Positions 40,201 through 62,774 of a DNA stretch of 64,000 nucleotides are shown piece by piece. The DNA comes from Rhodanobacter denitrificans. Lineage in GTDB: Bacteria > Pseudomonadota > Gammaproteobacteria > Xanthomonadales > Rhodanobacteraceae. A program made the position numbers and the translations under genes. How positions within the stretch are numbered: the first letter of the stretch is position 1; the number at the start of each line of letters is the position of its first letter. The notes below the pieces were generated by a model, which ran no database searches, was not told the DNA's origin, and was given only the letters and a program-made list of their open reading frames with translations. The stretch is from contig JAFIHF010000008.1 of NCBI GenBank assembly GCA_017848855.1, positions 1 through 64,000 on the forward strand. Reading direction: 5' to 3'.

Positions 40201-41472
40201 ATGATCCGCGACACGTCCGCACAAGACCGCCTGGTCGAGGTGAAGCCCAACCGCAAGCGCCGCCTGCTGTTCATTGGCGGCGGCGTGGCGCTGCTGGTGG
40301 CGCTGGCGATCGCCATGCCCGGCATCCTGCGCCTGTTCTCCGCCGACGCTTCGGTGAGCGCGTCGCGGCTGGCCTTCGCCACCGTCGAGCGCGGGCCGTT
40401 CGTGCGCGACATCGCCGCCGAGGGCAAGGTGGTGGCGGCGAACAGCCCCACGCTCTACGCCACCTACGGTGGCGCGGTGGTGCTCAAGGTGCACGCCGGC
40501 GACGCGGTGAAGAAGGGCCAGGTGCTGGCGGTGGTCGACAGCCCCGAGCTGCGCAACAAGCTGGCGCAGGAACAGAGCAACGCCGACGGCATGAAGGTGG
40601 CCTGGGAGCGCGCGCAGATCGACGCGCGCAAGCAGGGCGCGCAGTTGCAGGAGGCGTACGAGAACGCGCACATCGACGAGCAGACCGCCGCGCGCAACCT
40701 CGACCGCTACCAGACCGCGTTCGCCAAGGGCGCGGTGTCCAGCATGGACGTGGACAAGGCCAAGGACGCGCTGGAAAAGGCGCAGATCGCCAGCCGCCAG
40801 GCCAAGTCCAACCTCGGCCTGGACAAGGACAGCTCGAACTTCGACATCCAGGCGAAGAAGCTCGCCTACGAGCGCCAGCAACTGCTGGTGCAGGATCTGC
40901 AGCGCCAGGTGGACGACTTGAACGTCAAGTCGCCGGTGGACGGCCAGGTCGGCCAGCTGTTCGTCGCGCCGGTGGCCACGGTGGCGAAGGACGCGCAACT
41001 GCTCAGCGTGGTCGACCTCACCGCGCTGGAAGTGGAAGTGAAGGTGCCGGAGAGCTTCGCCCGCGACCTCGCGATCGGCATGACCGGCGAGATCAGCGGC
41101 AACGGCAACACCTGGAAGGGCCTGGTCAGCGCGATCTCGCCCGAAGTGGTGAACGGCGAAGTGGCCGCCCGCGTGCGCTTCGAGGGCGAAACGCCCAAGC
41201 AGTTGCGCCAGAACCAGCGTCTGTCCGTGCGCATCCTGCTCGACAAGCGCGACAACGTGCTCACCGTGCAGCGCGGCTCCTTCGTCGACGAATCCGGCGG
41301 CGCGTACGCCTACGTGGTCCGGGACGGCATCGCCACCAAGACCCCGATCCGCGTGGGCGTCTCCAGCATCGACAAGGTGGAGATCCTGCAGGGCCTGAAG
41401 GAAGGCGACCGCATCGTGATCTCCGGCACCGACAGCTTCAAGGGCGCGCAGACGGTAGCTATCGCGCGTTGA
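40201..41472 (+). CDS. Periplasmic adaptor (HlyD/MacA-like membrane fusion protein)
   Basis: 423 residues. Membrane anchor (about 22-45), then a lipoyl-like half (VHAGDAVKKGQVLAVVDSPE), a long alpha-helical hairpin (about 115-235, rich in Gln, Ala and Lys), the second lipoyl half (VKSPVDGQVGQLFVAPVATV) and a beta-barrel. It would link an inner-membrane ABC transporter to an outer-membrane channel; no TolC-like gene is in the window. First gene after the sigma-54 promoter. Confidence 0.92.
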   Translation: MIRDTSAQDRLVEVKPNRKRRLLFIGGGVALLVALAIAMPGILRLFSADASVSASRLAFATVERGPFVRDIAAEGKVVAANSPTLYATYGGAVVLKVHAGDAVKKGQVLAVVDSPELRNKLAQEQSNADGMKVAWERAQIDARKQGAQLQEAYENAHIDEQTAARNLDRYQTAFAKGAVSSMDVDKAKDALEKAQIASRQAKSNLGLDKDSSNFDIQAKKLAYERQQLLVQDLQRQVDDLNVKSPVDGQVGQLFVAPVATVAKDAQLLSVVDLTALEVEVKVPESFARDLAIGMTGEISGNGNTWKGLVSAISPEVVNGEVAARVRFEGETPKQLRQNQRLSVRILLDKRDNVLTVQRGSFVDESGGAYAYVVRDGIATKTPIRVGVSSIDKVEILQGLKEGDRIVISGTDSFKGAQTVAIAR

Positions 41473-41700
41473 CAGATTTCCCTTCCCCCTCCGGGGGAAG
41501 GTGCCCACCTGCAGGCGCAGGAAGCGCCTGCGGAACAGCGAAGCTGGCCCCGCAGGGGTGAGCGACAGGGATGGAGCGAATACAGGGCGGATGGGGGTAC
41601 GGGCGGAGCGAAACATTCGCCTTGGCCGAACACTCACCCCAACCCCTCTCCCGGCGGGAGAGGGGCTCCAAGAACCACCACCACCGAAGGACGCACAACC
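41473..41700 (+). repeat. Hairpin-rich spacer between adaptor and ATPase genes
   Basis: 228 bases without a gene. It contains CTTCCCCCTCCGGGGGAAG at the start, GCAGGCGCAGGAAGCGCCTGC in the middle and CCTCTCCCGGCGGGAGAGG near the end. The last resembles the spacers within the permease array. These could tune expression of genes after the adaptor. Confidence 0.55.
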
Positions 41701-42420
41701 ATGCTGAAGATGACCCACCTGTCCAAGGTCTACCGCACCGAAGTGGTGGAGACCTACGCGCTGCGCGATTTCAACATCGACGTGAAGGAGGGCGAGTTCG
41801 TCGCCGTCACCGGGCCGTCCGGTTCGGGCAAGACCACCTTCCTCACCATCGCCGGCCTGCTCGAAACCTTCACCGGCGGCGAGTACCACCTCGACGGCAT
41901 CGAGGTGAGCAACTTGAACGACAACGCACGCTCGAAGATCCGCAACGAGAAGATCGGCTTCATCTTCCAGGCGTTCAACCTGATCCCCGACCTCAACGTG
42001 TTCGACAACGTGGAAGTGCCGCTGCGCTACCGCGGCATGAAGGCGCCCGAGCGCAAGCAGCGCATCATGGACGCGCTGGAGCGCGTGGGCCTGGCCTCGC
42101 GCTACAAGCACTACCCGGCCGAACTCTCCGGCGGCCAGCAGCAGCGCGTGGCGATCGCCCGCGCGCTGGCCGGCAGCCCGCGCCTGCTGCTCGCCGACGA
42201 ACCCACCGGCAACCTGGACACGCAGATGGCCCGCGGCGTGCTGGAGCTGCTGGAGGAGATCCACCGCGACGGCGCCACCATCGTGATGGTGACCCACGAC
42301 CCCGAGCTCGCCGCGCGCGCGCAGCGCAACGTGCACATCATCGACGGCCAGGTGGTGGATCTCTCGGTGGACCCGCGCTTCCACGCCGCGCACCACGCCG
42401 CCAGCGAGGCGCACGGTTGA
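41701..42420 (+). CDS. ABC transporter ATPase (LolD/MacB type)
   Basis: 239 residues. Walker A GPSGSGKT (about 37-44), Q-loop IFQAFNLIPDLNV, signature LSGGQQQRVAIARA, Walker B RLLLADEPTGNLD and H-loop VMVTHDPELA. The TGNLD sequence is typical of the LolD/MacB/FtsE group, which powers mechanotransmission rather than simple transport. It is the only ATPase gene here for fourteen permeases. Confidence 0.95.
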   Translation: MLKMTHLSKVYRTEVVETYALRDFNIDVKEGEFVAVTGPSGSGKTTFLTIAGLLETFTGGEYHLDGIEVSNLNDNARSKIRNEKIGFIFQAFNLIPDLNVFDNVEVPLRYRGMKAPERKQRIMDALERVGLASRYKHYPAELSGGQQQRVAIARALAGSPRLLLADEPTGNLDTQMARGVLELLEEIHRDGATIVMVTHDPELAARAQRNVHIIDGQVVDLSVDPRFHAAHHAASEAHG

Positions 42421-42563
42421 GGCCTGAAAGCCCTCTCCCCCGGCTGTGCCGGGGGAGAGGGCTGGGTGAGGGGGCTGTTCGCGCGCAAAAAACACTCCCT
42501 CACCCCAACCCTCTCCCCCAATGCTGTTGGGGGAGAGGGCGCCAACCACCACCCGAGATCACG
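42421..42563 (+). repeat. Double hairpin spacer before permease A1
   Basis: Two strong hairpins: CCCTCTCCCCCGGC with GCCGGGGGAGAGGG near the start, and CCCTCTCCCCCAA with TTGGGGGAGAGGG near the end. The same two-hairpin layout recurs at 47955-48108. Confidence 0.6.
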
Positions 42564-43874
42564 ATGCTCGCCTACTACTTCCACCTCGGCCTGCGCAGCC
42601 TGCGCCGCAACCCCGCCCTCACCACGCTGATGGTGATGGCGGTCGGTTTCGGCGTGGCCGCGTCGATGATCACGTACTCCGTGTTCCGCGCGGTGTCGGG
42701 CAATCCGATCCCGGACAAGTCGGCGCAGCTGTTCATCCCGCAGATCGACGGCTGGGGCCCGCAGCAGAACCAGAAGGGCGAGCCGGCGGAAGCGCTGACT
42801 TACAACGACGCGATGGCGCTGCTGCGCGCGCACGAGGCGAAGCGCCAGACCATGCTGTATCCGGTGCAACTCGCGGTGTTGCCGGACGGCAAGCGCGACC
42901 TGCCGCTGAACGCGAGCGGCTACGCCGTGGGTAGCGATTTCTTCGCCATGTTCGAGGTGCCGTTCCGCTACGGCGGCGGCTGGAGCCTGCAGGACGACGA
43001 CGCGCGCGCCGCCGACGTGGTCATCAGCGGCGAGCTCAACCAGAAGCTGTTCGGCGGGGCCAACAGCGTGGGGCGCACGATCGACCTCGGTGGCCACGAC
43101 TACCGCGTGGTGGGCGTCGCCAGCCACTGGAACCCGCGCCCGCGTTTCTACGACCTGTTCAGTACCAGCGGTTTCGCCGACGAGCCGGACTTCTACCTGC
43201 CGTTCGCCCGCGCGCTGGATCTGCACATGTACACCGGCGGCCGCAACAGCTGCCGCGGCGAGCTGAGCTTCACCAACTGGACGGACTACACGCAGAGCAA
43301 CTGCGTGTGGATCACGCCGTGGGTGGAACTGGACACCCCCGCCGAAGTCGCGAGCTACCGCAGCTTCCTCACCCACTACGCCGCCGAGCAGCAGCGCGCC
43401 GGCCGCTTCAACTGGGCGCCGAACGTGCGCCTGCGCGACGTGGCGCAGTGGCTGGACCACGAGCGCGTGGTGCCGCCCGAAAGCCGCATCTCGCTGGCGG
43501 TGGCGCTGGGCTTCTTCCTGATCTGCCTGGTCAACACCATCGGCCTCTTGCTGGCGAAGTTCCTGCGCCGCAGCGGCGAAATCGGCGTGCGCCGCGCGCT
43601 GGGCGCCACGCGCCGGGAGATCTACACGCAATACCTGATCGAGGCGGGCACGGTGGGCCTGGCCGGCGGCGTGCTGGGCCTGCTGCTCACCGCGCTGGGC
43701 GTGGGCGGCGTGGGCGTGCTGTTCCCGCCGCAGATCGCGAAGCTGGCGCAGCTCGACGCCTCGCTGGTGGGGCTCACGCTGGCGGTGGCCATCGTCGCCA
43801 CCGTGCTGGCGGCGTTCTATCCGGCCTGGCGCGCGGCGCACGTGCAGCCGGCCTGGCAATTGAAGTCGAGCTGA
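42564..43874 (+). CDS. FtsX/MacB-type permease A1
   Basis: 436 residues, MLAYYFHLGLRSLRRNPALT. One membrane helix (20-40), a periplasmic MacB-type domain of about 270 residues, then three helices near the C-terminus. The domain holds the two-Cys loop (NSCRGE and SNCVW), NQKLFGGANSVG and HWNPRPRFYDL. The cytoplasmic segment SGEIGVRRALGATRREIY would contact the ATPase. Ends PAWQLKSS. Ten bases before its partner B1. Confidence 0.92.
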   Translation: MLAYYFHLGLRSLRRNPALTTLMVMAVGFGVAASMITYSVFRAVSGNPIPDKSAQLFIPQIDGWGPQQNQKGEPAEALTYNDAMALLRAHEAKRQTMLYPVQLAVLPDGKRDLPLNASGYAVGSDFFAMFEVPFRYGGGWSLQDDDARAADVVISGELNQKLFGGANSVGRTIDLGGHDYRVVGVASHWNPRPRFYDLFSTSGFADEPDFYLPFARALDLHMYTGGRNSCRGELSFTNWTDYTQSNCVWITPWVELDTPAEVASYRSFLTHYAAEQQRAGRFNWAPNVRLRDVAQWLDHERVVPPESRISLAVALGFFLICLVNTIGLLLAKFLRRSGEIGVRRALGATRREIYTQYLIEAGTVGLAGGVLGLLLTALGVGGVGVLFPPQIAKLAQLDASLVGLTLAVAIVATVLAAFYPAWRAAHVQPAWQLKSS

Positions 43875-43884
43875 GGAGAGGACG

Positions 43885-45123
43885 ATGAACCTGCCCATCC
43901 GCCCCATCCTCGTCGCGCTGCGCCGGCACAAGGCGGGCACCGTGCTGATCGCGCTGCAGATCGCGCTGACCCTGGCCATCGTGTGCAACGCGCTGTTCAT
44001 CATCCACGCGCGGCTGGCCAACCTGTCCGAAGCCAGCGGCGTGGACGAGCCCAACGTGTTCGTCATCAAGAACCAGTGGGCGGCCGAGCGGCCCACGGCG
44101 CAGGTGGATGCGCAGGTGCAGGCCGACCTGCTCGCGCTGCGGCAATTGCCCGCCGTGCGCGACGCCGCACCGGCCAGCGGCTACCCGCTGCAGGGCGGCG
44201 GCTGGGACAACCTGGTCACGCTGACGCCCGACCAGACCCATCCGATCACCGATTCGGCGGTGTACACCAGCGACGAGCATTTCATCGACACGCTCGGCGC
44301 GCGGCTGGTCGCGGGGCGCAACTTCCGCCCCGACGAAGTGATGGTGATGGGTACGCAGCAGTCGATCACCCCGCCCACGGTGATCGTGACCCGCGCGCTG
44401 GCCGACAAGCTGTTCCCCGGCGGCCACGCGTTGGGCAAGAGCTTCTACGCGATGGGCACCACGCCCAGCACCATCGTCGGCATCGTCGACCCGCTGCACC
44501 GGCAGGGCGTGAGCCAGTGGAACAAGGCCTATGCCGGGCAGGCGCTGATCTGGCCGCTGCGTGCGGACGATGCGCGCGGCATCTTCTACATCGTGCGCGC
44601 CAAGCCCGGCCAGCTCGCCGCCGCGATGCGCGAGGCGCCCAAGGCGCTGTATGCGCAGAGCCGCATGCGCATCATCGATCCGAAGGACGGCGTGCAGGAC
44701 TACGCCGCCATCCGCCACAAGGTCTACGACAGCGACCGCGGCATGGCGATCCTGATGGGCATCATCTGCGCCGTGCTGCTGGCGATCACCGCCGCGGGCA
44801 TCGTCGGCCTCACCAGCTTCTGGGTCGGCCAGCGGCGCAAGCAGATCGGCGTGCGCCGCGCGCTGGGCGCGCGCCAGCGCGACATCCTCGCCTACTTCCT
44901 CACCGAGAACTTCCTGATCAGCGCGGCGGGCGTGCTGCTCGGCGTCGTGCTGGCGGTCGCCTTCAACCTGTGGACGGTGACCCGCTTCGAGCTGGATCGC
45001 ATGTCGCTGGCCTATGTGGGCGTCGGCGTGCTCGTGCTGTTGCTGCTGGGGCAGGGCGCGACGTTCGCGCCGGCGCTGCGCGCCTCGCGCGTGTCGCCGG
45101 TGGAGGCGACGCGCAGCGTGTGA
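43885..45123 (+). CDS. FtsX/MacB-type permease B1
   Basis: 412 residues. Four helices around a periplasmic domain (about 45-285). TM1 has LTLAIVCNALFII; the coupling segment is KQIGVRRALGARQRDILAYF with a following TENFLI; it ends SRVSPVEATRSV, a slight variant of the usual PPVVATRSV tail. Follows A1 by 10 bases with GAGGAGAGG upstream. Confidence 0.92.
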   Translation: MNLPIRPILVALRRHKAGTVLIALQIALTLAIVCNALFIIHARLANLSEASGVDEPNVFVIKNQWAAERPTAQVDAQVQADLLALRQLPAVRDAAPASGYPLQGGGWDNLVTLTPDQTHPITDSAVYTSDEHFIDTLGARLVAGRNFRPDEVMVMGTQQSITPPTVIVTRALADKLFPGGHALGKSFYAMGTTPSTIVGIVDPLHRQGVSQWNKAYAGQALIWPLRADDARGIFYIVRAKPGQLAAAMREAPKALYAQSRMRIIDPKDGVQDYAAIRHKVYDSDRGMAILMGIICAVLLAITAAGIVGLTSFWVGQRRKQIGVRRALGARQRDILAYFLTENFLISAAGVLLGVVLAVAFNLWTVTRFELDRMSLAYVGVGVLVLLLLGQGATFAPALRASRVSPVEATRSV

Positions 45124-45181: not shown

Positions 45182-46498
45182 ATGTTTGCCTACTACATGG
45201 AACTGGCCCTGCGCAGCCTGAAGCGCAGCCCCGGCCTCACCACGCTGATGGTGCTGGCGATCGGCTTCGGCGTGGCCGCCTCGATGACTTCGTGGTCGGT
45301 GTTCCGCGCGGTGTCGGGCGACCCGATCCCGTGGAAGTCCGCGAAGCTGTTCGTGCCGCAGATCGACAACTGGGGATCGAACGGCCGCAGCAGCGACGGC
45401 GAGCCGCCGAACGCGATGGACTACGCCGATGCCATGGCGCTGATGCGCCAGCACCGCGCCAAGCTGCAGTCGGCGATGTACCAGATCTCGCCTTCGATCG
45501 TGCCCGCGGAAGCCTCCCGGCATCCGGTCAACGTCGGCGGGCATGCGGTGTACGGCGAGTTCTTCCCGATGCTGGACGTGCCGTTCAAGTACGGCAGCGG
45601 CTGGAGCGCCAGCGACGATGCCAACCGGGCGCAGGTGGTGGTGATCGGCAGCAAGCTCAACCAGAAGCTGTTCGGCGGCGCGAACAGCGTGGGCCGGAGT
45701 GTCAACATCGAGGGCCACGACTACCGCGTGGTGGGCGTGCTGGACCACTGGAACCCGCAGCCGCGCTACTACGACGTGGTCAACTCCGGCGGCTTCAACA
45801 GCCAGTCCGACGACGTGTTCCTGCCGTTCCAGACCGCCATCCAGGCGAACATCCAGAACGACGGCAACACCAACTGCTACGCGGTGCCCAAGGAACCCGG
45901 CTTCGTCGGCCTGCAGCACTCCGAGTGCGTGTGGATCGCTTTCATGGTGGAGCTGGACGACGCCGCGGCGGTGAGCGCGTACCGCAGCTACCTCGATGGC
46001 TACGCGAAGGAACAGCAGCAGGCCGGTCGCTTCGGCTGGGCGCCGAACAACCGCCTGCGCGACCTGCCGGCCTGGCTGGACAACCAGCACGTGGTGCCCA
46101 GCGACACCAAGGTGTCGCTGCTGGTGGCGCTGGGCCTCTTGCTGGTGTGCCTGGTCAACACCATCGGCCTCTTGCTGGCGAAGTTCCTGCGCCGCAGCGG
46201 CGAGATCGGCGTGCGCCGCGCGCTGGGCGCGCCGCGCCGCGCGATCTACCTGCAATTCCTCACCGAGGCCGGCATGGTCGGCGCGGCCGGCGGCGTGCTC
46301 GGCCTGCTGCTTACCTGCGCCGGCGTGGCCAGCGTGGGCTGGGTGATGCCCAAGGACATCGCCAGCCTCGCGCGGCTCGACGTCTCGCTGCTGGTGCTGA
46401 CCCTGCTGGTGGCGGTGCTCGCCACCATGCTGGCCGGCCTGTACCCCACCTGGCGCGCCTCGCGGGTGCAGCCGGCGTGGCAGCTCAAATCGAATTGA
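45182..46498 (+). CDS. FtsX/MacB-type permease A2
   Basis: 438 residues, MFAYYMELALRSLKRSPGLT. Very like A1 over the whole length, with NQKLFGGANSVGRS, DHWNPQPRYYDV, the Cys pair in NTNCYAV and SECVWI, and SGEIGVRRALGAPRRAIYLQ. Ends PAWQLKSN. A1 and A2 share more with each other than with later A-type members, suggesting a recent copy. Confidence 0.92.
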   Translation: MFAYYMELALRSLKRSPGLTTLMVLAIGFGVAASMTSWSVFRAVSGDPIPWKSAKLFVPQIDNWGSNGRSSDGEPPNAMDYADAMALMRQHRAKLQSAMYQISPSIVPAEASRHPVNVGGHAVYGEFFPMLDVPFKYGSGWSASDDANRAQVVVIGSKLNQKLFGGANSVGRSVNIEGHDYRVVGVLDHWNPQPRYYDVVNSGGFNSQSDDVFLPFQTAIQANIQNDGNTNCYAVPKEPGFVGLQHSECVWIAFMVELDDAAAVSAYRSYLDGYAKEQQQAGRFGWAPNNRLRDLPAWLDNQHVVPSDTKVSLLVALGLLLVCLVNTIGLLLAKFLRRSGEIGVRRALGAPRRAIYLQFLTEAGMVGAAGGVLGLLLTCAGVASVGWVMPKDIASLARLDVSLLVLTLLVAVLATMLAGLYPTWRASRVQPAWQLKSN

Positions 46499-46694: not shown

Positions 46695-47954
46695 ATGAAA
46701 CTCCACCCCATGATTGCGGCATTGCGCAAGCACAAGGCGGGCGTGGTGCTGATCGCGCTGCAGATCGCGCTGACCCTGGCCATCGTCTGCAACGCGATCT
46801 TCATCATCGGCCAGCGCATCAGCCGGGTGAACCGCCCCACCGGGCTGGACGAGAGCAACCTGTTCCTGGTCAGCCAGCAATGGGTGGGCGCGCCCAGCGC
46901 CGATTCCGCCGATGGCGTGGCCAAGCTCGACGCGATGCAGAAGGAGGATCTCGTCGCCTTGCGCAACCTGCCCAGCGTGGCGTCGGTGGCGCCGATCAAT
47001 TCGCTGCCGCTGCTGAATTCTTCTTGGATCGGTTCGGTGTCGCTCAAACCCGATGCCAAGTTCAGCGACAAGGCAGGCAACGCGCGCACCGCGTACTACT
47101 TCACCGACGAGCAGGCAATGTCGACACTGGGCGTGAAACTGGTGGCTGGCCGCTGGTTCAATGCCGGCGACGTGCAGCATCAGGGTTTCCGCGACAATCC
47201 CCCGCATCCTGTCGTCATCGTCACCAAAGCGATGGCGGACAAGCTGTTCCCAGCGGGCGATGCGGTGGGCAAGGCGGTCTACGCCGACGGCAGCAGCTCG
47301 CCCAGCACCATCGTCGGCGTGGTCGCGCGCCTGCAGGTGCCCGCCACCGGCAGCTGGGTCAACGACTTCGCGTGGAACGCCACCCTGATCCCCACCCGGT
47401 TGAACAGCAATGGATCGCGCTACGCGGTGCGCGCCAAGCCGGGCCAGCTGGAGGCAGCGATGAAGGCCGTGGCGCCCACGCTGTACCGGGTGAACCCGCT
47501 GCGCGTGCTCGACGACGACAGCGTCAAGTCGTTCGCCGACATCCGCGCCAAGGCCTACCGCGCCGACGTGGGCATGGCGATCCTGATGGGTGTGATCTGC
47601 CTCGTGCTGCTCAGCGTCACCGCCGCCGGTATCGTGGGCCTTACCAGCTTCTGGGTGGGCCAGCGCCACCGCCAGATCGGCGTGCGCCGCGCGCTGGGCG
47701 CGCGCAAGGTCGACATCCTGCACTACTTCCAGCTGGAGAACCTGCTGATCGCGGGCAGCGGCGCGCTGATCGGCATCGGCCTGGCGCTCGCCCTCAACCT
47801 GTGGCTGATGCGCCACTACGAGATGGACCGCCTGCCGCTGCCCTACACGTTGATCGGCGTGCTGGCCGTGCTGGTGCTCGGCCAGTGCGCGGTGTTCGTG
47901 CCCGCGCGGCGCGCCTCCAACGTGCCGCCGGTGACCGCCACGCGCGCGGTGTGA
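46695..47954 (+). CDS. FtsX/MacB-type permease B2
   Basis: 419 residues, MKLHPMIAALRKHKAGVVLI. TM1 segment LTLAIVCNAIFII matches B1. The coupling segment is RQIGVRRALGARKVDILHYF, with QLENLLI, and the tail is PPVTATRAV. GAGGAG lies 8 bases before the ATG. Closest in pattern to B1, in line with pairs 1 and 2 being a recent duplication. Confidence 0.92.
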   Translation: MKLHPMIAALRKHKAGVVLIALQIALTLAIVCNAIFIIGQRISRVNRPTGLDESNLFLVSQQWVGAPSADSADGVAKLDAMQKEDLVALRNLPSVASVAPINSLPLLNSSWIGSVSLKPDAKFSDKAGNARTAYYFTDEQAMSTLGVKLVAGRWFNAGDVQHQGFRDNPPHPVVIVTKAMADKLFPAGDAVGKAVYADGSSSPSTIVGVVARLQVPATGSWVNDFAWNATLIPTRLNSNGSRYAVRAKPGQLEAAMKAVAPTLYRVNPLRVLDDDSVKSFADIRAKAYRADVGMAILMGVICLVLLSVTAAGIVGLTSFWVGQRHRQIGVRRALGARKVDILHYFQLENLLIAGSGALIGIGLALALNLWLMRHYEMDRLPLPYTLIGVLAVLVLGQCAVFVPARRASNVPPVTATRAV

Positions 47955-48108: not shown

Positions 48109-49434
48109 ATGTTTGCTTACTACCTCGACCTCGCCCTGCGCAGCCTGAAGCGCAACCGCGTGCTCACCGCGCTGATGGTGCTGGCGATCGCCGTGGGCAT
48201 CGGTGCCAGCATGACCACGCTGACGGTGATGCACATCCTGTCCGGCGATCCCATGCCGGGCAAAAGCGCGCGGCTGTATTTCCCGCAGCTCGATCCCGCC
48301 CCGGCCGACTGGAAAACGCCGTTGCATCCGCGACCGATGATGGACTACCGCTCGGCGATGGATCTTTGGAGCGCGCATCGTGCCGATCGGCAGGCGCTGG
48401 TAGTGCAAAGCCCGGTGAAGGTCCTTGCACCGGGTACGGGGCGCCCGCCATTGATGCTGATGATGATGTCGACGACGACGGATTTCTTCCCGATGTTCGA
48501 CGTGCCGTTTGCGTACGGTGGCGCGTGGACGCCCGCGGACGAGGCCGGTCGTGCGCATGTGGCGGTGATATCGAGCGACCTCAACGACAGACTGTTCGGC
48601 GGTGGCAACAGCGTAGGCAGGACCTTGCATCTCAGGGACGCCGACGTGCGCATCGTCGGCGTGTTGAAACCGTGGCGTCCGACGCCCCTGTTCTACGATC
48701 CCGTGGGTGGCATCACCGGCAGCATGACGCCTACGGGCTTTTATGGCAGGCCCGAGGACGTCTTCATGCCGTTCCTCGCCGGCCTCGACGTCAACGACGG
48801 CAACTTCTTCCAGTACACCTGCTGGGGCAGCGGGCCGGCGAAACCCGGGCATTTGCAGGACGCGCCATGCCTCTGGCTCGCCTTGTGGGTGGAGCTGGAC
48901 AGCCCCGCCAAGGCAGCCGCGTATCGCTCGTTCCTCGACGGTTACGTGCGGCAGCAGAAGGCACTGGGGCGTTTCGCGCACATCGACACGGACATGCCGG
49001 ACCTGATGCAGCAGCTGGACCGGGCGCACGCAATACCGGCGAACGTCCGGCTGCAGACCTGGCTGGCGCTCTCCTTCCTGGCGATCTGCCTGTTCAACAT
49101 GGTGGGTCTGTTGCTGGCCAAGTTCCTTCAGCGCAGCGGCGAGATCGGCGTGCGCCGCGCCTTGGGCGCGTCGCGGCCTGCGGTGTTCGCGCAATGCCTG
49201 GCCGAGGCCGGATTGATCGGTCTGATCGGTGGCGTGGGTGGATGGTTGTTGACGCTCGCCGGGCTGTGGCTGGTGCGCCGCCAGCAGTTGCCGTACTCCG
49301 ACCTCGTGCATATGGACATGCCGATGTTCGCGAGCACGTTCGTGCTGGCGGTCGCGGCCAGCTTGATCGCAGGGTTGTTGCCGGCATTGCGTGCGAGCAG
49401 GGTTGCGCCAGCGCTGCAGTTGAAGACCTTGTGA
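48109..49434 (+). CDS. FtsX/MacB-type permease A3
   Basis: 441 residues, MFAYYLDLALRSLKRNRVLT. The periplasmic domain is more divergent (PWRPTPLFYDPV), but the Cys pair is kept (FQYTCWGS and APCLWL). Coupling segment SGEIGVRRALGASRPAVFAQ; tail PALQLKTL. Base use in the periplasmic part looks less GC-biased than in A1 and A2. B3 starts 8 bases after the stop. Confidence 0.92.
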   Translation: MFAYYLDLALRSLKRNRVLTALMVLAIAVGIGASMTTLTVMHILSGDPMPGKSARLYFPQLDPAPADWKTPLHPRPMMDYRSAMDLWSAHRADRQALVVQSPVKVLAPGTGRPPLMLMMMSTTTDFFPMFDVPFAYGGAWTPADEAGRAHVAVISSDLNDRLFGGGNSVGRTLHLRDADVRIVGVLKPWRPTPLFYDPVGGITGSMTPTGFYGRPEDVFMPFLAGLDVNDGNFFQYTCWGSGPAKPGHLQDAPCLWLALWVELDSPAKAAAYRSFLDGYVRQQKALGRFAHIDTDMPDLMQQLDRAHAIPANVRLQTWLALSFLAICLFNMVGLLLAKFLQRSGEIGVRRALGASRPAVFAQCLAEAGLIGLIGGVGGWLLTLAGLWLVRRQQLPYSDLVHMDMPMFASTFVLAVAASLIAGLLPALRASRVAPALQLKTL

Positions 49435-53593: not shown

Positions 53594-54883
53594 ATGTTCG
53601 GCTATTACCTCGACCTGGCGCTGCGCAGCCTCAAGCGCAACAAGGCGCTCACCGCGCTGATGGTACTGGCGATCGCGCTGGGCATCGGCACCAGCATGAC
53701 CACGCTGACCGTGATGCACGTGCTGTCGGGCGATCCGATTCCGCAGAAGAGCGCGCAGCTGTTCCGTGTGCGCATGAACGTGTTTCCGGACGACAGTTTC
53801 CGCCCGGGCGACAAGGTGCCGGACAACCTGACCCGCCGCGATGTCGAGGCGCTGCTGCGCGATGCGCGTGCCGACCGTCAGGCGGCGATGTCGGCCGGCG
53901 CGATGGTGGTGGCCGCGCAGGGCGAGCCGCTGCGCGTGGCGACGCGTTACACCGGCGCGGATTTCTTCCCCATGTTCGACGTGCCGATGCGCTACGGCCG
54001 CGCCTGGAGCCGCGCCGACGATGCGAGCCGTGCACGCGTCGCGGTGATCTCGAGCGTGCTGAACGAGCAGCTCTTCGGCGGCGTGGACAGCGTGGGCAAG
54101 ACGTTGCAGGTGGGCGAGCAGTCCCTGCGCATCGTCGGCGTGCTGGGCGACTGGAACATGAACCCGCGCTTCTACGACCTCAGCAACGGCCAGTTCGGCG
54201 ACAGCGAGCAGGTGTTTCTGCCGCTGTCCACGGCGCTGGACCTGAAGCTGTCCAGCAGCGGCTCCACGAATTGCTGGAGCCGCACAAATGATGCACGCGC
54301 CGCCGATGCGCCCTGCATCTGGCTGCAGTACTGGGCGGAACTGGACACGCCGGCGAAGGCGGCGACCTACCGGCAATACCTGCAGAACTACATCGCCCTG
54401 CAACAACAGGCCGGGCGTTTCAGCCATGCCGGCCAGGCCGAGGCGCTGGACGTGATGCAGTGGCTGGACGCCAAGGGCGTGGTGCCCGCCGACGTGCGCC
54501 TGCAGACCTGGCTGGCGCTGGGCTTCCTCGGCATCTGCCTGCTCAATACCGTGGGCCTGCTGCTGGCGAAGTTCCTGCGCCGCAGCGGCGAAATCGGCGT
54601 GCGCCGCGCGTTGGGCGCTTCACGCCGCGCGATCTTCCTGCAGTGCCTGGTCGAGGCCGGCGTGGTGGGGCTCGCCGGCGGCGTGCTCGGCCTGGCATTG
54701 GCGGCCCTGGGTCTGGTGCTGGTGCGCCACCAGCCGACCGACTACGCCGCCTACATCCACATGGACCTGCGCATGTTGCTGGCCACCTTCGTGCTGGCGC
54801 TGGCGAGCAGCCTGCTGGCCGGCCTGCTGCCGGCGTGGCGGGCCATGCAGGTGGCGCCCGCCGTGGCGCTCAAGTCGAACTAG
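53594..54883 (+). CDS. FtsX/MacB-type permease A5
   Basis: 429 residues, MFGYYLDLALRSLKRNKALT. Periplasmic domain with GDWNMNPRFYDLS and the Cys pair (STNCWSR and APCIWL). Coupling segment SGEIGVRRALGASRRAIFLQ; tail PAVALKSN. Partner B5 begins 24 bases on. Confidence 0.92.
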   Translation: MFGYYLDLALRSLKRNKALTALMVLAIALGIGTSMTTLTVMHVLSGDPIPQKSAQLFRVRMNVFPDDSFRPGDKVPDNLTRRDVEALLRDARADRQAAMSAGAMVVAAQGEPLRVATRYTGADFFPMFDVPMRYGRAWSRADDASRARVAVISSVLNEQLFGGVDSVGKTLQVGEQSLRIVGVLGDWNMNPRFYDLSNGQFGDSEQVFLPLSTALDLKLSSSGSTNCWSRTNDARAADAPCIWLQYWAELDTPAKAATYRQYLQNYIALQQQAGRFSHAGQAEALDVMQWLDAKGVVPADVRLQTWLALGFLGICLLNTVGLLLAKFLRRSGEIGVRRALGASRRAIFLQCLVEAGVVGLAGGVLGLALAALGLVLVRHQPTDYAAYIHMDLRMLLATFVLALASSLLAGLLPAWRAMQVAPAVALKSN

Positions 54884-54907: not shown

Positions 54908-56131
54908 ATGCACTTCCGTCACATCCTGAGCGCGCTGGGCCGCCACCGGATCGCCGTTGGCCTGCTGGTGCTGGAGATCGCCTTTTCCTGCGCGGTGGTC
55001 TGCAACGCGCTGTTCCTCATCGGCAGCCGGCTGGAGCGCATGCAGCGGCCCACCGGCGTGGACGAGGCGCACCTGGTCGAGATGTTCATCGGCAGCGTTA
55101 CGCGCGGCTCGGCGGACGCGGTCATGGCGCAGACGCGCACCGACCTGGCCGCGCTGCGGGCCATTCCCGGTGTCGCCAATGCCTCCGTCGTCAACCAGAC
55201 GCTGTTCGGCAACTCGCTCAATGCCAGCGGCGTCAGCCTCAGTGACGAGGCGAAGGCGCCGAGCATCCCGGTCACGCAGTACATGGGCGATGCGCAACTG
55301 GCCGACACCCTGGGCCTGAAACTGGTGGATGGCCAGTGGTTCAAGCCGGACGAATTCATCACCGAGGAGCAGCTTGAAAGCGGCCACTCCGGCCTGCCCG
55401 TGATCATCACCAAGGCGTTGGCAGACCATTTCTTTCCGGGCCAGTCGGCGGTCGGCAAGACCATCCATGCCTTCGGCACCAACCGCGTGGTGGGGGTGCT
55501 GGATCGGCTGGTGCAGCCGCACGACTCCGGCCCTGCGGAGTATTACGGCTACGCCATGCTGTTTCCGGTGAACCTGCCGTACACGGAAGGCGCCTACGTG
55601 ATCCGGGTGAGGGATGCGGCGCAGCGCGCCGCGGTGCTCCAGGGCGCATTGCGCGCGCTGAAGGCCGACGGCCCGCTGCGGCTGATCTCGCCGAAGTACG
55701 CCTTCACGCTGGAGTCGCAGCGCGACAAGTACTACCGCAACGACCGCGCGATGGCCTGGATGCTGGTGGGCGTGTGCCTGCTGCTGCTGGTCGTCACGGC
55801 GGTGGGCATCGTGGGCCTGACCAGCTTCTGGGTGGCGCAGCGGCGCCGGCAGATCGGCATCCGCCGCGCGATTGGAGCCACGCGCGGCGACATCCTGCGC
55901 TACTTCCAGACCGAGAATTTTCTGATCGCGACGCTTGGCATCGCCCTGGGCATGGTGCTGGCCTTCGGCCTCAACCTGCTGTTGATGCGGCACTACGAAC
56001 TGGGGCGTTTGCCGGGCTACTACTTCCCAGTGGGCGCCATCGTGCTGTGGCTGCTCGGGCAACTCGCCGTACTCGGCCCCGCGCTGCGCGCGGCGGCAGT
56101 GCCGCCGGTGGTGGCGACACGCAGCGTGTGA
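54908..56131 (+). CDS. FtsX/MacB-type permease B5
   Basis: 407 residues, MHFRHILSALGRHRIAVGLL. TM1 has CAVVCNALFLI. Coupling segment RQIGIRRAIGATRGDILRYF with QTENFLI; tail PPVVATRSV. GAGAGGA precedes the ATG. The C-terminal half is close to B3. Confidence 0.92.
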   Translation: MHFRHILSALGRHRIAVGLLVLEIAFSCAVVCNALFLIGSRLERMQRPTGVDEAHLVEMFIGSVTRGSADAVMAQTRTDLAALRAIPGVANASVVNQTLFGNSLNASGVSLSDEAKAPSIPVTQYMGDAQLADTLGLKLVDGQWFKPDEFITEEQLESGHSGLPVIITKALADHFFPGQSAVGKTIHAFGTNRVVGVLDRLVQPHDSGPAEYYGYAMLFPVNLPYTEGAYVIRVRDAAQRAAVLQGALRALKADGPLRLISPKYAFTLESQRDKYYRNDRAMAWMLVGVCLLLLVVTAVGIVGLTSFWVAQRRRQIGIRRAIGATRGDILRYFQTENFLIATLGIALGMVLAFGLNLLLMRHYELGRLPGYYFPVGAIVLWLLGQLAVLGPALRAAAVPPVVATRSV

Positions 56132-56791: not shown

Positions 56792-58105
56792 ATGTTCGGC
56801 TACTACCTCGACCTTGCGCTGCGCAGCCTGAAGCGCACGCCCATCCTCACCGGCCTGATGGTGCTCGCCATCGGCCTGGGCATCGGCGCGGCCATGACCA
56901 TGCTGACGGTGCTGCACGTGATGACCGACGATCCGCTGCCGGGACGCAGCGCGCACTTGTACACGCCGCATCTCGATCCCTTGCCGCTCGACTACAAGCA
57001 GGGCGGCGACGGCCCCGACCCCACCGACGACCTCACCTGGCCCGATGCGATGGCGCTGCTCAAGGCGCAGCGCGCCACGCGGCAGGCGGCGATGGCGGGC
57101 GGCTCGTTGTTGCTGCGGCCGGGTCGTGCCGACCTGCGTCCGTTCTATGTGGATGGCCGCTACGCCACGGCGGATTTCTTCGCGCTGTTCGGCGTGCCGT
57201 TCCTGCAAGGCAGCGGCTGGAGCGCCGCGGACGACGCGGCCGGCGCGCAGGTGGTGGTGCTGGTCGACGCGCTGGCGCGCAAGTTGTTCGGCACGGGCAA
57301 CGCGGTGGGCCGGATGGTGCGCCTGGGCGAGCACGATTACCGCGTGATCGGCGTGACGCGCGATTGGCAGCCTGCGCCGATGTTCTACGTCGACGCTTCG
57401 GCCAAGCGTTACAGCGATGGCGACATGTTCTTTCTGCCGCTGGCTACCGCGGTGGATCGGAAGCTCGACGTCAACGGCAACTTCAGCAGTTGGGGCGAGG
57501 ATCGTGCCGAGACGCGCATGGTCAGCCCGACCACGACCTGGTTGCAGTTCTGGGCGCAGTTGGACACACCGGCACAAGCGGCGGCGTATCGCCAATACCT
57601 GGTCGATTACTCCGCGCAGCAGAAGGCGTTGGGCCGTTTCCAGCGTCCGCCGGCGAACGCGAAGCTGTACGGCCTGATGGGTTGGCTGGCGCACGAAAAC
57701 CTGGTGCCCGGCGACGTGCGCCTGCAACTGTGGCTGGCGCTGGGCTTCCTGTTCGTGTGCATGCTCAACATCGTGGCCTTGCTGCTGGCGAAGTTTTTGC
57801 GCCGCAGCGGCGAGATCAGCGTGCGCCGCGCGCTGGGCGCGAAGCGGCGCGACATCTTCGTGCAGCTCGGCATCGAGTCGGCGCTGATCGGCGTGGCCGG
57901 CGGCGCGCTGGGCCTGGCCATCGCGCAGCTCGGCCTGTGGAGCATCCGCCAGCGCCCGGACGACTACGCCAGGCTGGCGCAGATGGATATGCCGATGCTG
58001 CTCGGAACCTTGGCGCTCGCCGTGCTCGCCAGCGTGCTGGCCGGCCTGCTGCCGGCGTGGCGCGCGTGCCGGGTGCCGCCGGCGCTGCAACTCAAGATGC
58101 TTTGA
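56792..58105 (+). CDS. FtsX/MacB-type permease A6 (no cysteine pair)
   Basis: 437 residues, MFGYYLDLALRSLKRTPILT. The region with two cysteines in the other A members reads NFSSWGEDRAET and PTTTWLQFW here, so the pair is lost. RDWQPAPMFYVDA is also divergent. Coupling segment SGEISVRRALGAKRRDIFVQ; tail PALQLKML. AAGGAGGA precedes the ATG. Confidence 0.92.
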   Translation: MFGYYLDLALRSLKRTPILTGLMVLAIGLGIGAAMTMLTVLHVMTDDPLPGRSAHLYTPHLDPLPLDYKQGGDGPDPTDDLTWPDAMALLKAQRATRQAAMAGGSLLLRPGRADLRPFYVDGRYATADFFALFGVPFLQGSGWSAADDAAGAQVVVLVDALARKLFGTGNAVGRMVRLGEHDYRVIGVTRDWQPAPMFYVDASAKRYSDGDMFFLPLATAVDRKLDVNGNFSSWGEDRAETRMVSPTTTWLQFWAQLDTPAQAAAYRQYLVDYSAQQKALGRFQRPPANAKLYGLMGWLAHENLVPGDVRLQLWLALGFLFVCMLNIVALLLAKFLRRSGEISVRRALGAKRRDIFVQLGIESALIGVAGGALGLAIAQLGLWSIRQRPDDYARLAQMDMPMLLGTLALAVLASVLAGLLPAWRACRVPPALQLKML

Positions 58106-58115: not shown

Positions 58116-59369
58116 ATGGAACTTCGACCGATCCTTTCCACCCTGCGCCACCACAAGCTCACCGCCAGCCTGCTGACGCTGCAGGTGGCCTTCACCTGCG
58201 CCATCGTCTGCAACGTGGTGTTCATGATCGCGAACCGCGTGCACCAGATCAGCCTGCCGAGCGGGCTTGCCGAGAGCGAGTTGTCGATGCTGAAAATCGC
58301 CGGGATCGACCCGGGGGAAAATTCGCAGGCGCGGCATGCCGCGGATCTGGCCGCGCTGCGGGCGATCCCCGGCGTGCAGGCGGCAGTGGCGGTGGACAGC
58401 CTGCCGCTGGGCCGCAACGACTCCAGCTATGGCACCTGCGCCAACCAGCAAGCGTGGAACCGCGCCATGGCGGCGCGTTCGCTCAATGGCGTGCAAGGCT
58501 GCCTGAACCCCAGCGTCTACAGCGGTTCGCCCGGCGAGCTGGAGGCGTTGGGACTGCACCTGGTTGCCGGGCGCGATTTCCAACCGGATGACTATGTGCC
58601 GGCAAAGCCCGGCTACGTCGCGGCCAATGTGCCCAGCGCCATCGTCACCCGCAGCCTGGCAGCGAAGCTGTATCCGGGACGGGACGCGCTGGGGCAGAGC
58701 CTCTACATGGGCGGGCGTCCGCCCATGCGCATCGTCGGCGTGGTGGAAAACCTGCTGCGCCCGCGCCTGCGCGAGCCGGGCGTGAATCAATACAGCGTCT
58801 TGTTGCCCTCGATCCCCGGCGAACCGTCGGTGACCTACGTGCTGCGCAGCGCACCGCAGGATCGGGCCCGCGTGCTCGGGTCGGCGGTTGCCGCGTTGAC
58901 GCGGCTCGACCCCAACCGCCTGATACCGCCGGATGGCGTGCGCACCTACACCCAGATCCGCCACGCCTACTTCCAGCGCGACACCACCATGATCGGCCTG
59001 CTGATCGCCTCGGCGCTGGGCCTCTTGTTCGTCACCGCGCTGGGCATCGCCGGGCTGGCGAATTTCTGGGTGCAGCAGCGCACGCGCAGCATCGGCATAC
59101 GTCGTGCGATTGGAGCGACCCGCGGCGATATCCTGCGCTACTTCCAGGCCGAGAACTTCCTCATCGTCACGGTCGGCATCGTGCTCGGCGTGCTGCTCGC
59201 CATCGTGCTGAACCTGCTGCTGATGACGCATTACGAACTGCCGCGCCTGCCGCTGTGGTACCTGCCCATCGGCGCGGCGGTGCTGTGGGCGCTGGGGCAA
59301 CTCGCGGTGCTCTCGCCGGCGCTGCGCGCCTCGCATGTGCCGCCGGTGGTGGCGACGAGGAGCGTGTGA
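58116..59369 (+). CDS. FtsX/MacB-type permease B6
   Basis: 417 residues, MELRPILSTLRHHKLTASLL. TM1 has CAIVCNVVFMI. The periplasmic domain has its own cysteines (YGTCANQQ and VQGCLNPS). Coupling segment RSIGIRRAIGATRGDILRYF; tail PPVVATRSV. Starts 10 bases after A6. Confidence 0.92.
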   Translation: MELRPILSTLRHHKLTASLLTLQVAFTCAIVCNVVFMIANRVHQISLPSGLAESELSMLKIAGIDPGENSQARHAADLAALRAIPGVQAAVAVDSLPLGRNDSSYGTCANQQAWNRAMAARSLNGVQGCLNPSVYSGSPGELEALGLHLVAGRDFQPDDYVPAKPGYVAANVPSAIVTRSLAAKLYPGRDALGQSLYMGGRPPMRIVGVVENLLRPRLREPGVNQYSVLLPSIPGEPSVTYVLRSAPQDRARVLGSAVAALTRLDPNRLIPPDGVRTYTQIRHAYFQRDTTMIGLLIASALGLLFVTALGIAGLANFWVQQRTRSIGIRRAIGATRGDILRYFQAENFLIVTVGIVLGVLLAIVLNLLLMTHYELPRLPLWYLPIGAAVLWALGQLAVLSPALRASHVPPVVATRSV

Positions 59370-59428
59370 TGGAGCAGGGCGACGAGAGGGGCGGAGCCGG
59401 ATTCGGCAAAGCGACGGAGCAGGTTCCC

Positions 59429-59961: not shown

Positions 59962-59970
59962 GGGACAGAC

Positions 59971-60150: not shown

Positions 60151-60208
60151 GGCGTGCTCCGGTTCGGGAATCCATCTTACTTCAATGCCTTGGGCGAGGG
60201 AGTTCTGA

Positions 60209-61528
60209 ATGTTCGACTACTACCTGCGCCTCGCCCTGCGCCGCTGCCGGCAGAACCTGGCGATGGTGGGCCTCTTGGTGCTGACCATGGCCATCGGCAT
60301 CGCCGCGACGATGACGGCGATGACGATCTTCGGCGCGCTTGCCGGCGATCCGCTGCCGGGCATCAGCCCGCACCTTTACGTGGCGACGATGGATGCGCGC
60401 GAGGCGGTGGACAAGGACAACCCCGACTACAAGCAACCGGACAGCTGGCTCAAGCTCGGCGACGCCAAGGCGCTGGTGGATGCGCACCGCGCGCCGCAGC
60501 AACTGGCGTTGGCGCAGAGCCTGACCACGATGGACAGTCCCGACGGCAAGCACAGCGAACAGGCCTGGGGCTTCATGGCCTACGGCGAACCGCTGGGCAT
60601 GCTGGGTGTGCCATTGCGCTTCGGTCGGCCGTGGACGGCGCAGGAGCTGGCGGCGCGTGCGCCGGTGGTGGTGATCGACAGCGATCTGGCGCAGAAGCTG
60701 TTCGGCACCGCAGACGCGGTGGGCCGCAGCGTGCTGCTGGGTGGCAAGCCGTTTCGCGTGGTTGGCGTCACAGTGCCGTGGAAGCCGCACACGGTGTTCC
60801 TCGACCTGCAGCGCAACCAGGGCAACCCGCAGGGCAGCAACGACGAGTTCTTCGTGCCTGCGGAGGCGGCGCTGGATGCGGGCGTGGGGCCGTTCACCTC
60901 GGGCGAGTGCGGCAAGGGGGCGCCAGTCATCGGCTTCCAGTCGGCGGCGGTACAACATTGCCGCTGGCTGGAAGTGTGGTCGCGGCTGGACACGCCGGCG
61001 CAGGTAGCGGACTGGCGGCAATTCCTCGCCAACTACGCCGATGCGCAGCGCGCGGCGGGCCGTTTCGTCTATCCGCCGCAGCCGAAGCTCTACGGCGCGC
61101 GCGCATGGATGACGCTGAATCACGTGGTGCCCGACGACGTGCGCCTGAACCTGATGCTGGCCGGCGCGTTCCTGCTGCTGTGCATGGTCAACGTGGCGGG
61201 CCTCCTGGCCGCGCGCTTCCTGCGCCGGCAGGCGGACGTGGCGATCCGCCGCGCGCTGGGCGCGTCCAAGCGCACGGTGTTCGCGCAGCACCTGGTGGAG
61301 ACCGGCATCCTCGGCCTCGCCGGCGGCGTGCTGGCCTTGCCGCTGACCTGGCTGGGCCTGTGGATCGTGCGCCTGCAGCCGGTGAGCTATGCGGAGGCGG
61401 CGAAGTTCAGCCCCGGCGTGTTCGGTGCGCTGCTGCTGTTTTCGCTCATCGTGGGCCTGCTGGTGGGCGTGTTGCCCGCATGGCGCGTGTGCCGGCAGCC
61501 GCCGGCCCTGCAGATCAAGGTGGCTTGA
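60209..61528 (+). CDS. FtsX/MacB-type permease A7
   Basis: 439 residues, MFDYYLRLALRRCRQNLAMV. The most divergent A member: the coupling segment is QADVAIRRALGASKRTVFAQ instead of SGEIGVRRALGA, and the domain has VPWKPHTVFLDLQ. The Cys pair is kept (TSGECGKG and VQHCRWL). Tail PALQIKVA. The ATG follows GAGGGAG. Confidence 0.9.
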   Translation: MFDYYLRLALRRCRQNLAMVGLLVLTMAIGIAATMTAMTIFGALAGDPLPGISPHLYVATMDAREAVDKDNPDYKQPDSWLKLGDAKALVDAHRAPQQLALAQSLTTMDSPDGKHSEQAWGFMAYGEPLGMLGVPLRFGRPWTAQELAARAPVVVIDSDLAQKLFGTADAVGRSVLLGGKPFRVVGVTVPWKPHTVFLDLQRNQGNPQGSNDEFFVPAEAALDAGVGPFTSGECGKGAPVIGFQSAAVQHCRWLEVWSRLDTPAQVADWRQFLANYADAQRAAGRFVYPPQPKLYGARAWMTLNHVVPDDVRLNLMLAGAFLLLCMVNVAGLLAARFLRRQADVAIRRALGASKRTVFAQHLVETGILGLAGGVLALPLTWLGLWIVRLQPVSYAEAAKFSPGVFGALLLFSLIVGLLVGVLPAWRVCRQPPALQIKVA

Positions 61529-61532
61529 GGAG

Positions 61533-62774
61533 ATGGCCGTGCGACATATCGTGAATCCCTTGTTGCGCCATCGCCTGATGCCGCTGCTGGTCGTGCTGCA
61601 GGTGGCGCTGGCCTGCGCCATCGCCTGCAACGCACTGTTCCTGCTGCAGCAGAAGCTGGTGCCCATCCTCGCGCCTGATGGTATCGGCACTCCGGACCGG
61701 CTGGTGATGGCCTGGAATATCGCGTCGCGCGGCAAGCCCTGGCCGACCGGCCGTCTGCTGGAAGTGCGCCAGGCGTTGCGGGCATTGCCGGGCGTGAGCG
61801 CAGCCAGCGTGGCCGGTTCGCTGCCGATGGAGACCAATGCGCAGATGAACGGCGAGGCGATTGCGGAGGACACACACGCCAAGGCCGGCGATGCGGCTGT
61901 CTACATCGGTGCCGACCTGGTCGATACGCTGGGCTTGCACCTGGTCGCCGGGCGCGATTTCAGCGCCGAAGAGCAATCCATCCAGTACCACGGCATGGGC
62001 ATCAACGATTCCGGCCCGGCCATCATCACCCGCGCGCTGGCGAACCGCCTGTTTCCCGATGGGCATGCGCTGGGCAAGGTGATACGCATCGGTGCAGCTG
62101 CCGATGCCGGGCGCCGCACCGTGGTCGGTGTGGTCGCGCACCTGATGAGCAACAAGTTCGACGCCGACGGCGGCAATGTGGACTACACCATGCTGTTTCC
62201 CGGCGTGCCGGGCAATTGGCCGATGCCGGTGTTCGCGGTGCGCGTGGCGCCGGGCGCGGACGTGGAACGCGTGCGCAAGGCGGTCGATGCCACCATCCAC
62301 CGCGAACTGGGCAATGAAATGATCCGGGGCTTCGAGCCGAGCATCCAGATGTACGGCGACATGCGTGCGCATGCCCTGGCGAAGTTCAAGGCCGCCGTAT
62401 GGCTGCTCGCCGGCGTCAGCGTGGTGGTGCTGATCGTCACCCTCGCCGGCATCATGGGCCTCACCGGCTACTGGGTGCAGCAGCGCACGCGGCAAATCGG
62501 CATCCGCCGTGCGCTGGGCGCGCGCCGCCGCCACATCCTGCGCGAGCTGCAACTGGAAAACCTGCTGGTGGTCGGCGTCGGCGTGCTGCTCGGGCTGGCC
62601 TGCGCCTACGCGATCAACCTGTGGCTGATGCGGCACTACGAACTCACCCGCCTGCCGTGGATCTACCTGCCCGTCGGCGCGGCGCTGATGCTGCTGCTCG
62701 GCCAGCTCGCCGTGCTGTCGCCCGCGCTGCGCGCCTCGCGCGTGCCGCCGGTGGTGGCGACGCGGAGCGTGTGA
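61533..62774 (+). CDS. FtsX/MacB-type permease B7
   Basis: 413 residues, MAVRHIVNPLLRHRLMPLLV. TM1 has CAIACNALFLL. Coupling segment RQIGIRRALGARRRHILREL with QLENLLV; tail PPVVATRSV. GAGGAG touches this ATG, so a GTG 6 bases downstream is better spaced, but alignment to B6 favours the ATG. Last gene of the array. Confidence 0.9.
   Translation: MAVRHIVNPLLRHRLMPLLVVLQVALACAIACNALFLLQQKLVPILAPDGIGTPDRLVMAWNIASRGKPWPTGRLLEVRQALRALPGVSAASVAGSLPMETNAQMNGEAIAEDTHAKAGDAAVYIGADLVDTLGLHLVAGRDFSAEEQSIQYHGMGINDSGPAIITRALANRLFPDGHALGKVIRIGAAADAGRRTVVGVVAHLMSNKFDADGGNVDYTMLFPGVPGNWPMPVFAVRVAPGADVERVRKAVDATIHRELGNEMIRGFEPSIQMYGDMRAHALAKFKAAVWLLAGVSVVVLIVTLAGIMGLTGYWVQQRTRQIGIRRALGARRRHILRELQLENLLVVGVGVLLGLACAYAINLWLMRHYELTRLPWIYLPVGAALMLLLGQLAVLSPALRASRVPPVVATRSV

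Follow-up and report, generated by a model that had tools for sequence, protein, structure and literature searches.

The 64,000-nucleotide window analyzed here, positions 1 to 64,000 of contig JAFIHF010000008.1 of Rhodanobacter denitrificans (C17:1-64000, on an 81-kb contig of a 3.49-Mb draft genome, G000), harbors an array in which one HlyD-type periplasmic adaptor gene and one adjacent LolD-type ATPase gene are followed by seven tandem pairs of FtsX/MacB-type permease genes, A1-B1 to A7-B7. The same plan, adaptor-ATPase-(AB)n with n ranging from 1 to 12, is present in all 51 arrays that we read in the host family, the Rhodanobacteraceae, and because of this recurrence the arrangement is beyond chance. 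We consider it moderately probable that the array encodes a one-head, many-permease Type VII exporter with dedicated pairs, a sigma54-controlled operon, further pairs that act in trans, and a peptide cargo.

In such an exporter, which would belong to the Type VII (MacB/LolCDE) class of ATP-binding cassette (ABC) systems, each A+B pair would form a dedicated heterodimer, equivalent to a duplicated permease whose halves are encoded by separate genes. All pairs would dock on the one LolD-type ATPase via their conserved cytoplasmic coupling region, would have the HlyD-type adaptor and a TolC-type duct in common, and would differ in the periplasmic cargo that they accept, the likeliest cargo being periplasmic small peptides or peptide-like toxins. 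A single sigma54 promoter before hlyD would turn on the whole operon, activated from an upstream palindrome by the NtrC-type regulator whose gene lies past the last pair. The same regulator may drive some AB pairs elsewhere, which would borrow the head in trans, as well as small-peptide genes whose products bear a hydrophobic leader.

The array and its recurrence in the Rhodanobacteraceae

A preliminary description of this DNA had reported 14 permease genes in strict A-B alternation (42564-62774), with one HlyD adaptor and one adjacent LolD-type ATPase ahead of them; both points are borne out, the latter also in 51/51 arrays. The features of the array are as follows.

40063..40074, +, TGTCCGCGGACA palindrome and likely enhancer, at which the NtrC-type regulator would act; present with at most one mismatch in 45/51 arrays
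40141..40155, +, sigma54 -24/-12 promoter-like site, 60 bp upstream of hlyD
40201..41472, +, HlyD-type periplasmic adaptor (HlyD_D23, HlyD_3, and RND_mfp above cut-off)
41701..42420, +, LolD-type ABC ATPase (ABC_tran, 110.6 bits; top NCBIfam model DarD, under its cut-off)
42564..43874, +, permease A1 (domain/sequence match and predicted structure)
43885..45123, +, permease B1 (domain/sequence match and predicted structure)
45182..46498, +, permease A2 (domain/sequence match)
46695..47954, +, permease B2 (domain/sequence match)
48109..49434, +, permease A3 (domain/sequence match)
49443..50663, +, permease B3 (domain/sequence match)
50882..52192, +, permease A4 (domain/sequence match)
52189..53406, +, permease B4 (start overlaps the end of A4; sequence match)
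53594..54883, +, permease A5 (domain/sequence match)
54908..56131, +, permease B5 (sequence match)
56792..58105, +, permease A6 (domain/sequence match)
58116..59369, +, permease B6 (domain/sequence match)
60209..61528, +, permease A7 (domain/sequence match)
61533..62774, +, permease B7 (domain/sequence match)
63585..64000, continuing past the window to C17:64925, +, NtrC-type sigma54 response regulator (GAYTGA read)
C17:65446-66831, past the window (locus L001), histidine kinase, after the response regulator

The FtsX domain was found in 14/14 permeases and MacB_PCD in 12/14; the two without a MacB_PCD match, B4 and B5, align over their length with other B proteins. A and B are distinct types: compared with A1, the six other A proteins are 37 to 59% identical and the B proteins 18 to 21%. 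The type-specific ends that had been described hold in part. The B end VPPVVATRSV is exact in 5/7 proteins, with B1 and B2 deviating, and the A start motif is looser than claimed (A1, MLAYYFHLGLRSLRR; A7, MFDYYLRLALRRCRQ).

We sampled 147 genomes of the family (all samples in this study lie within the host phylum), and an adaptor match at E<=1e-100 was obtained in 139 of them. A search of related genomes for arrays and their copy number, which the preliminary description had proposed, did find such arrays; the 51 that we read are that of the window, those of 10/14 same-genus genomes, and those of 40 more family genomes, hand-chosen for long contigs and a spread over genera. They total 252 pairs, 251 of them intact, and contain one pair (10 genomes), two (3), three (4), four (7), five (6), six (5), seven (6), eight (3), nine (4), 11 (2), or 12 pairs (1). 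Alternation of A and B is broken in a single array, that of G138, one of whose B genes is in two pieces, and the arrays are closed by a sigma54 response regulator gene in 50/51 and a kinase gene in 48/51 cases. Among 80 named-contig loci cut at <=10 kb of flank (Rhodanobacter, Dyella, Frateuria, Fulvimonas, Oleiagrimonas, and others), AAB or ABB calls were made in 4/80, and several loci are too short to show pairs.

In a second family of the same order, the seven loci first read comprise arrays of five, four, two, and two pairs, two loci with a single pair, and an A-B-B locus (L235, G179), the second B of which diverges strongly (164 bits); two additional single pairs were found besides these. 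Outside the order, one pair is present in each of ten loci, a regulator and a kinase adjoin it in 6/10, and B-type matches number one per genome among the matches listed. Since a single pair is all that each locus outside the order contains, this state looks ancestral, and the array may be a later expansion. We found no description of an array of this kind in the open-licence PubMed Central (PMC) literature. When plasmid carriage was considered, B5 matched only three Pseudoalteromonas records (31-32%) among 72,556 plasmid records; against anti-phage models, A1 gave only a 14.5-bit match and B1 none, and the matches of the ATPase look generic.

The repertoire is old and nonredundant, and its unit is the A+B pair. 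Over the 251 intact pairs, the patristic distances of A and of B proteins correlate with an r of 0.902, versus 0.042 on average (maximum, 0.109) when partners are shuffled within genomes (200 shuffles), and in 0/251 cases is the nearest pair located in the same genome. The nearest A and the nearest B are mutual partners in 133/251 pairs and differ in type in 2/251, both of which are unclassified pairs. Type order is concordant in 456/511 comparisons, versus 62% after shuffling. The pair types depend on the chosen distance cut; the nearest-neighbor and tree results are independent of it. The ratio of nonsynonymous to synonymous substitution rates (dN/dS, by NG86) is below 1 in all comparisons, and as synonymous sites are saturated, only the fact that it is below 1 is used.

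The excess of within-genome over between-genome DNA identity between types is 0.018 to 0.021 at the B 3' end, 0.014 over the last 60 residues of B (3' end included), 0.011 at the A 5' end, and 0.001 to 0.009 in other regions, which is at most suggestive of gene conversion. In the window, the end of B3 with its spacer (50478-50736) and the end of B4 with its spacer (53221-53479) share 85% DNA identity; several spacers of the array also have GC-rich palindromic repeats in common, and these similarities suggest local recombination at pair boundaries. Four pairs of an array from another family of the order (G237, L232) are closest to Rhodanobacteraceae types. Horizontal transfer of pairs was considered, but it is indistinguishable here from old descent, permease identity being too flat against adaptor identity.

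Other genes are found in and around the arrays. In the window, a DUF559 gene lies between B5 and A6 (56194-56790; G005 has another DUF559 gene between pairs), a ParE-type toxin gene with an Unstab_antitox partner separates B6 from A7 (59432-59961, - strand), and a Phd/YefM-type antitoxin gene with a PIN-domain gene lies between B7 and the response regulator gene (62862-63511). A TolC-type gene follows the ATPase gene in 12/51 arrays, including all 10 same-genus relatives read; it is absent from the window array (42421-42563), and a homolog with 52% identity is at G000:C51:31763-33106 in the window genome. A DUF885 gene (Pfam) lies between the last B and the regulator in G085, with genes similar by sequence in several other arrays, and a hydrolase gene with S33 and S9 peptidase-type matches (Pfam on L067) is present between or after the pairs in 5/51 arrays.

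The promoter signature and the small peptides behind it

A sigma54 -24/-12 site is located 49 to 78 bp upstream of hlyD in 50/51 arrays; in the remaining array, that of G085, the match to the adaptor begins too early, and the site at 400 would fall about 70 bp ahead of an adaptor of normal length. In 45/51 arrays, TGTCCGCGGACA with at most one mismatch is found 66 to 81 bp further upstream, and there are 22 other such matches in 1.96 Mb. The strict sigma54 pattern does not occur between the adaptor and the regulator on either strand in the 50 arrays. The signature of palindrome plus sigma54 site is present in 115/147 family genomes, with 0 occurrences in each row for a reversed-pattern control, and the window genome has two such sites, at the head of the array and at C42:165762. 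In other lineages the signature is less regular; a loose sigma54 pattern precedes the adaptor in 3/7 loci of the second family of the order and in 4/12 further loci. Gaps within arrays have medians of 10 bp from A to B (n=252) and 61 bp from B to A (n=197), which fits a long operon. The sequence features of an NtrC/sigma54-controlled operon can be recognized (the -24/-12 site, an upstream candidate activator site, and an NtrC-type regulator), and we infer that one long transcript is made and that the regulator binds at the palindrome.

We read 22 extra signature sites, namely C42:165762 and 21 sites in 20 hand-picked stretches, among the matches listed. AB pairs follow at five of them, a peptide gene at 14, and other genes at three. 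The peptides are 27 to 73 residues long and start 44 to 59 bp after the promoter at the 14 sites; 13/14 passed a filter for a ribosome-binding-like site, and the peptide of L264 was recognized by eye and by profile. Neither of the two peptides scanned has a Pfam or NCBIfam match. Downstream of the peptide is a SpoU-type methylase gene, presumably trmL, in 10/14 cases (Pfam was run on one), and the remaining four precede beta-lactamase-family genes (two), an NlpC/P60 gene (one), and an ATP-grasp peptide-maturase-like gene (one). In the window genome the product at C42 is an unnamed 67-residue peptide with a hydrophobic leader and a two-cysteine tail (L259:1642-1842). At L264, the gene behind the signature that resembles ATP-grasp maturases of ribosomal peptides (2907-3998) is preceded by a 51-residue peptide of the family and a 55-residue open reading frame; this may be a graspetide cluster.

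A profile of the peptides matches 85/147 family genomes. Among the 51 genomes whose arrays were read, matches were obtained in 29/34 with at least four pairs, in 5/7 with two or three, and in 2/10 with one (Fisher P=0.00025 for n>=4 versus n=1, kinship not being corrected for).

That 14/22 extra sites precede a peptide suggests that small peptides are cargo or partners of the exporter, and peptide cargo is plausible on the basis of these sequences. There is a strong alternative, to which we give serious weight: the peptides of the regulon may be accessory membrane subunits or regulators instead of cargo, as AcrZ is an accessory peptide of AcrB, with the pumps expelling toxins from outside, such as antimicrobial peptides. 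The N-terminal hydrophobic segment is the most conserved part of the peptides, and 27- and 28-residue forms are nearly tail-less, as an accessory function would lead one to expect; peptidase-type and beta-lactamase-family genes and BlaR1/BlaI-type regulators near some sites or some AB pairs outside arrays point the same way. The conserved two-cysteine tail in most peptides read speaks against this alternative, as does the site that leads to the ATP-grasp gene, which fits produced peptides.

Proposed sharing of the ATPase among pairs

The preliminary description had proposed that all pairs share the one ATPase and had regarded a second ATPase dedicated to some pairs elsewhere in the genome as decisive against this; none was found. 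The window genome has four other loci with MacB_PCD permeases, each with an adjoining ATPase, and six further LolD-type ATPases, the nearest 57% identical to that of the array. This nearest ATPase belongs to a sister system (L002, G000:C19) composed of an adaptor, this ATPase, permeases, a sigma54-type regulator, and a kinase, which is unexpanded.

The periplasmic domains had been named as the varied part of the permeases, and domain-wise alignment agrees: identity between paralogs of the same genome is 0.41 (A) and 0.30 (B) in the periplasmic part, versus 0.67 (A) and 0.73 (B) in the cytoplasmic coupling region that faces the ATPase. We also read 13 AB loci outside arrays, found by homology. 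Two of the 13 have their own ATPase. Neither an adaptor nor a LolD-type ATPase is encoded within about 4 kb of flank at the other 11 (12 pairs), one of which has a weak 63-bit ABC match 2.6 kb away. That AB pairs elsewhere mostly lack a nearby ATPase favors sharing in trans. The orphan pairs retain array-like coupling regions (0.65 for A and 0.72 for B), and several have a single array type as the nearest for A and B alike (type B for L227, C for L226, F for L222 and L223, and D for L219). Of the orphans, only L226, with the palindrome, and L229, with both elements, carry any part of the signature. Five more AB loci, with six pairs, were located via the signature (L266, L267, L269, L274, and L277). 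As to neighbors, the orphan pair of L222 (L222:7752-10341) adjoins BlaR1 (M56) and BlaI-type genes, and that of L227 a kinase gene and a LytTR regulator gene.

Several observations weigh against the proposed exporter. With respect to the ATPase, its conservation is 0.959, versus 0.952 for the sister C19-type ATPase (28 genome pairs), and when adaptor identity is matched it does not clearly change with the number of pairs; the idea of the ATPase as a slowly evolving hub was rejected on these grounds, and ATPase conservation therefore gives sharing no support. In G013, a one-contig genome, the ATPase is split over two frames (C1:1066623-1067323) beside nine intact pairs, which reflects either an assembly error or an ATPase that is dispensable or replaceable. 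As an outgroup for the coupling region, only L230 is clearly separate; the score of L225, a locus with an ATPase of its own, resembles that of the array. With respect to regulation in trans, 10/12 homology-found orphan pairs have neither the palindrome nor a sigma54 site within 400 bp before A, and some orphan pairs adjoin other regulators; the five signature-found loci lack an ATPase in about 5 kb, on the downstream side only, and were found by the signature itself. One sigma54 match in the window alone is unremarkable (0.27 expected; 26/100 shuffles have one), and the sigma54 case therefore rests on conservation. With respect to the peptides, 5/34 genomes with at least four pairs have no match, and no peptide gene was seen in the array.

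This raises the possibility that only the first pair, or a few, uses the array ATPase and that the others use other LolD-type ATPases or none. The six further ATPases, the nine pairs kept by G013, and the absence of hub constraint would all be compatible with such a system, which we nevertheless consider unlikely, since the coupling region is conserved across pairs, the other MacB_PCD permease loci of the window genome have ATPases of their own, and one ATPase is linked to the pairs in 51/51 arrays. The proposal that one ATPase energizes several pairs has gained weight from the 11/13 AB loci without a nearby adaptor or LolD-type ATPase and stays an inference.

The preliminary description had further suggested interchangeable heterodimers; if any A could combine with any B, seven A and seven B proteins would give many of them. 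Transmembrane and cytoplasmic parts are indeed conserved among all A and all B proteins, but the A and B trees are congruent, the nearest types being discordant in only 2/251 pairs, with strict alternation; because of this congruence the exchangeable unit is the pair, freely mixed subunits are not supported, and we regard such mixing as improbable. Exchangeability thus appears to apply to pairs, not to single subunits. A copy number of 1 to 12 might suggest that the additional pairs are redundant and were retained for their dosage or by chance. This is very improbable given that the nearest relative of every pair lies in another genome, that types are common to several genera, and that dN/dS is <1 throughout (at saturated synonymous sites).

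Relation to known exporters and implications

The array system has an FtsX C-terminal domain, a MacB-type periplasmic core, and a LolD/MacB-type ATPase partner, which are the features of Type VII exporters; LolD, FtsE, and MacB are among the top models of the ATPase. Single-chain predicted structures (predicted local distance difference test score, 80.0 for A1 and 88.4 for B1) have MacB (5gko) as the top PDB match, with LolC/LolE and YbbP also among the matches. Like MacAB-TolC, the system has FtsX/MacB_PCD permeases, a HlyD/MacA-type adaptor in the operon, and MacB-like predicted folds. In MacB, however, the ATPase is fused to the permease, whereas the array ATPase is a separate gene, the permeases are A/B pairs, and there are up to 12 pairs per ATPase. 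A passage of PMC5985334 describes MacB as a homodimer and LolCDE as functioning without an adaptor. LolCDE resembles the array system in its separate LolD-type ATPase and two unequal permeases and differs in having a single permease pair, versus up to 12. The equivalog scores fall short of the Lol cut-offs (LolC/LolE, at most 34.1 bits versus at least 362; LolD, 218.8 versus 307.75).

DarBCD is the darobactin exporter; DarD is the best NCBIfam model of the array ATPase and the adaptor also matches DarC, both below the equivalog cut-offs (DarC, 88.1 versus 450 bits; DarD, 256.3 versus 375). ADOPs are described as ATPase-less, and the orphan AB pairs likewise lack an ATPase in their neighborhood; on the ADOP model (TIGR03434, 803 positions) A covers the first half (5-401) and B the second (411-801). 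The scores of A1, B1, A7, and B7 (164.7-181.1 bits) miss the cut-off of 622.3 bits, and the array differs from ADOPs in having two genes instead of one fused protein and a linked ATPase. As a defining feature of MacAB, the fused ATPase, is missing and the LolCDE, DarCD, and ADOP cut-offs are not reached, the system is best filed as a variant of the Type VII (MacB-type) ABC exporters, and it would work most like MacAB-TolC with LolCDE-like heterodimers. In YbbAP-TesA, as described in PMC12646458, two ATPase copies work with a duplicated permease that carries two periplasmic domains of the MacB-like kind. Each AB pair would likewise work with two ATPase copies; YbbAP-TesA differs in its fused permease, its TesA hydrolase partner, and the lack of an array. 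MsiK is a shared ATPase of sugar importers. A further precedent is MsmK, which according to PMC4519317 is one ATPase for several ABC sugar importers. Both differ from the array system in serving importers, not MacB-type exporters, and in having no permease array.

A bolder form of the proposal, which we put forward tentatively, is a modular export platform in which the ATPase-adaptor head, a lineage-wide library of nonredundant AB pairs (in the array and in trans), and small secreted peptides would be under one regulator acting at TGTCCGCGGACA, with one peptide or peptide class per pair. If so, specificity would be swapped by exchanging pairs, and the platform would show how ATPase-less, ADOP-like permeases get powered.

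MacB-class exporters have so far been known with one permease type or pair per ATPase. Up to 12 dedicated pairs per ATPase, together with ATPase-less relatives, would make ATPase sharing a design principle of the class, and the powering of ATPase-less permeases would become directly testable. The promoter signature narrows the cargo question to a short list of coregulated peptides.

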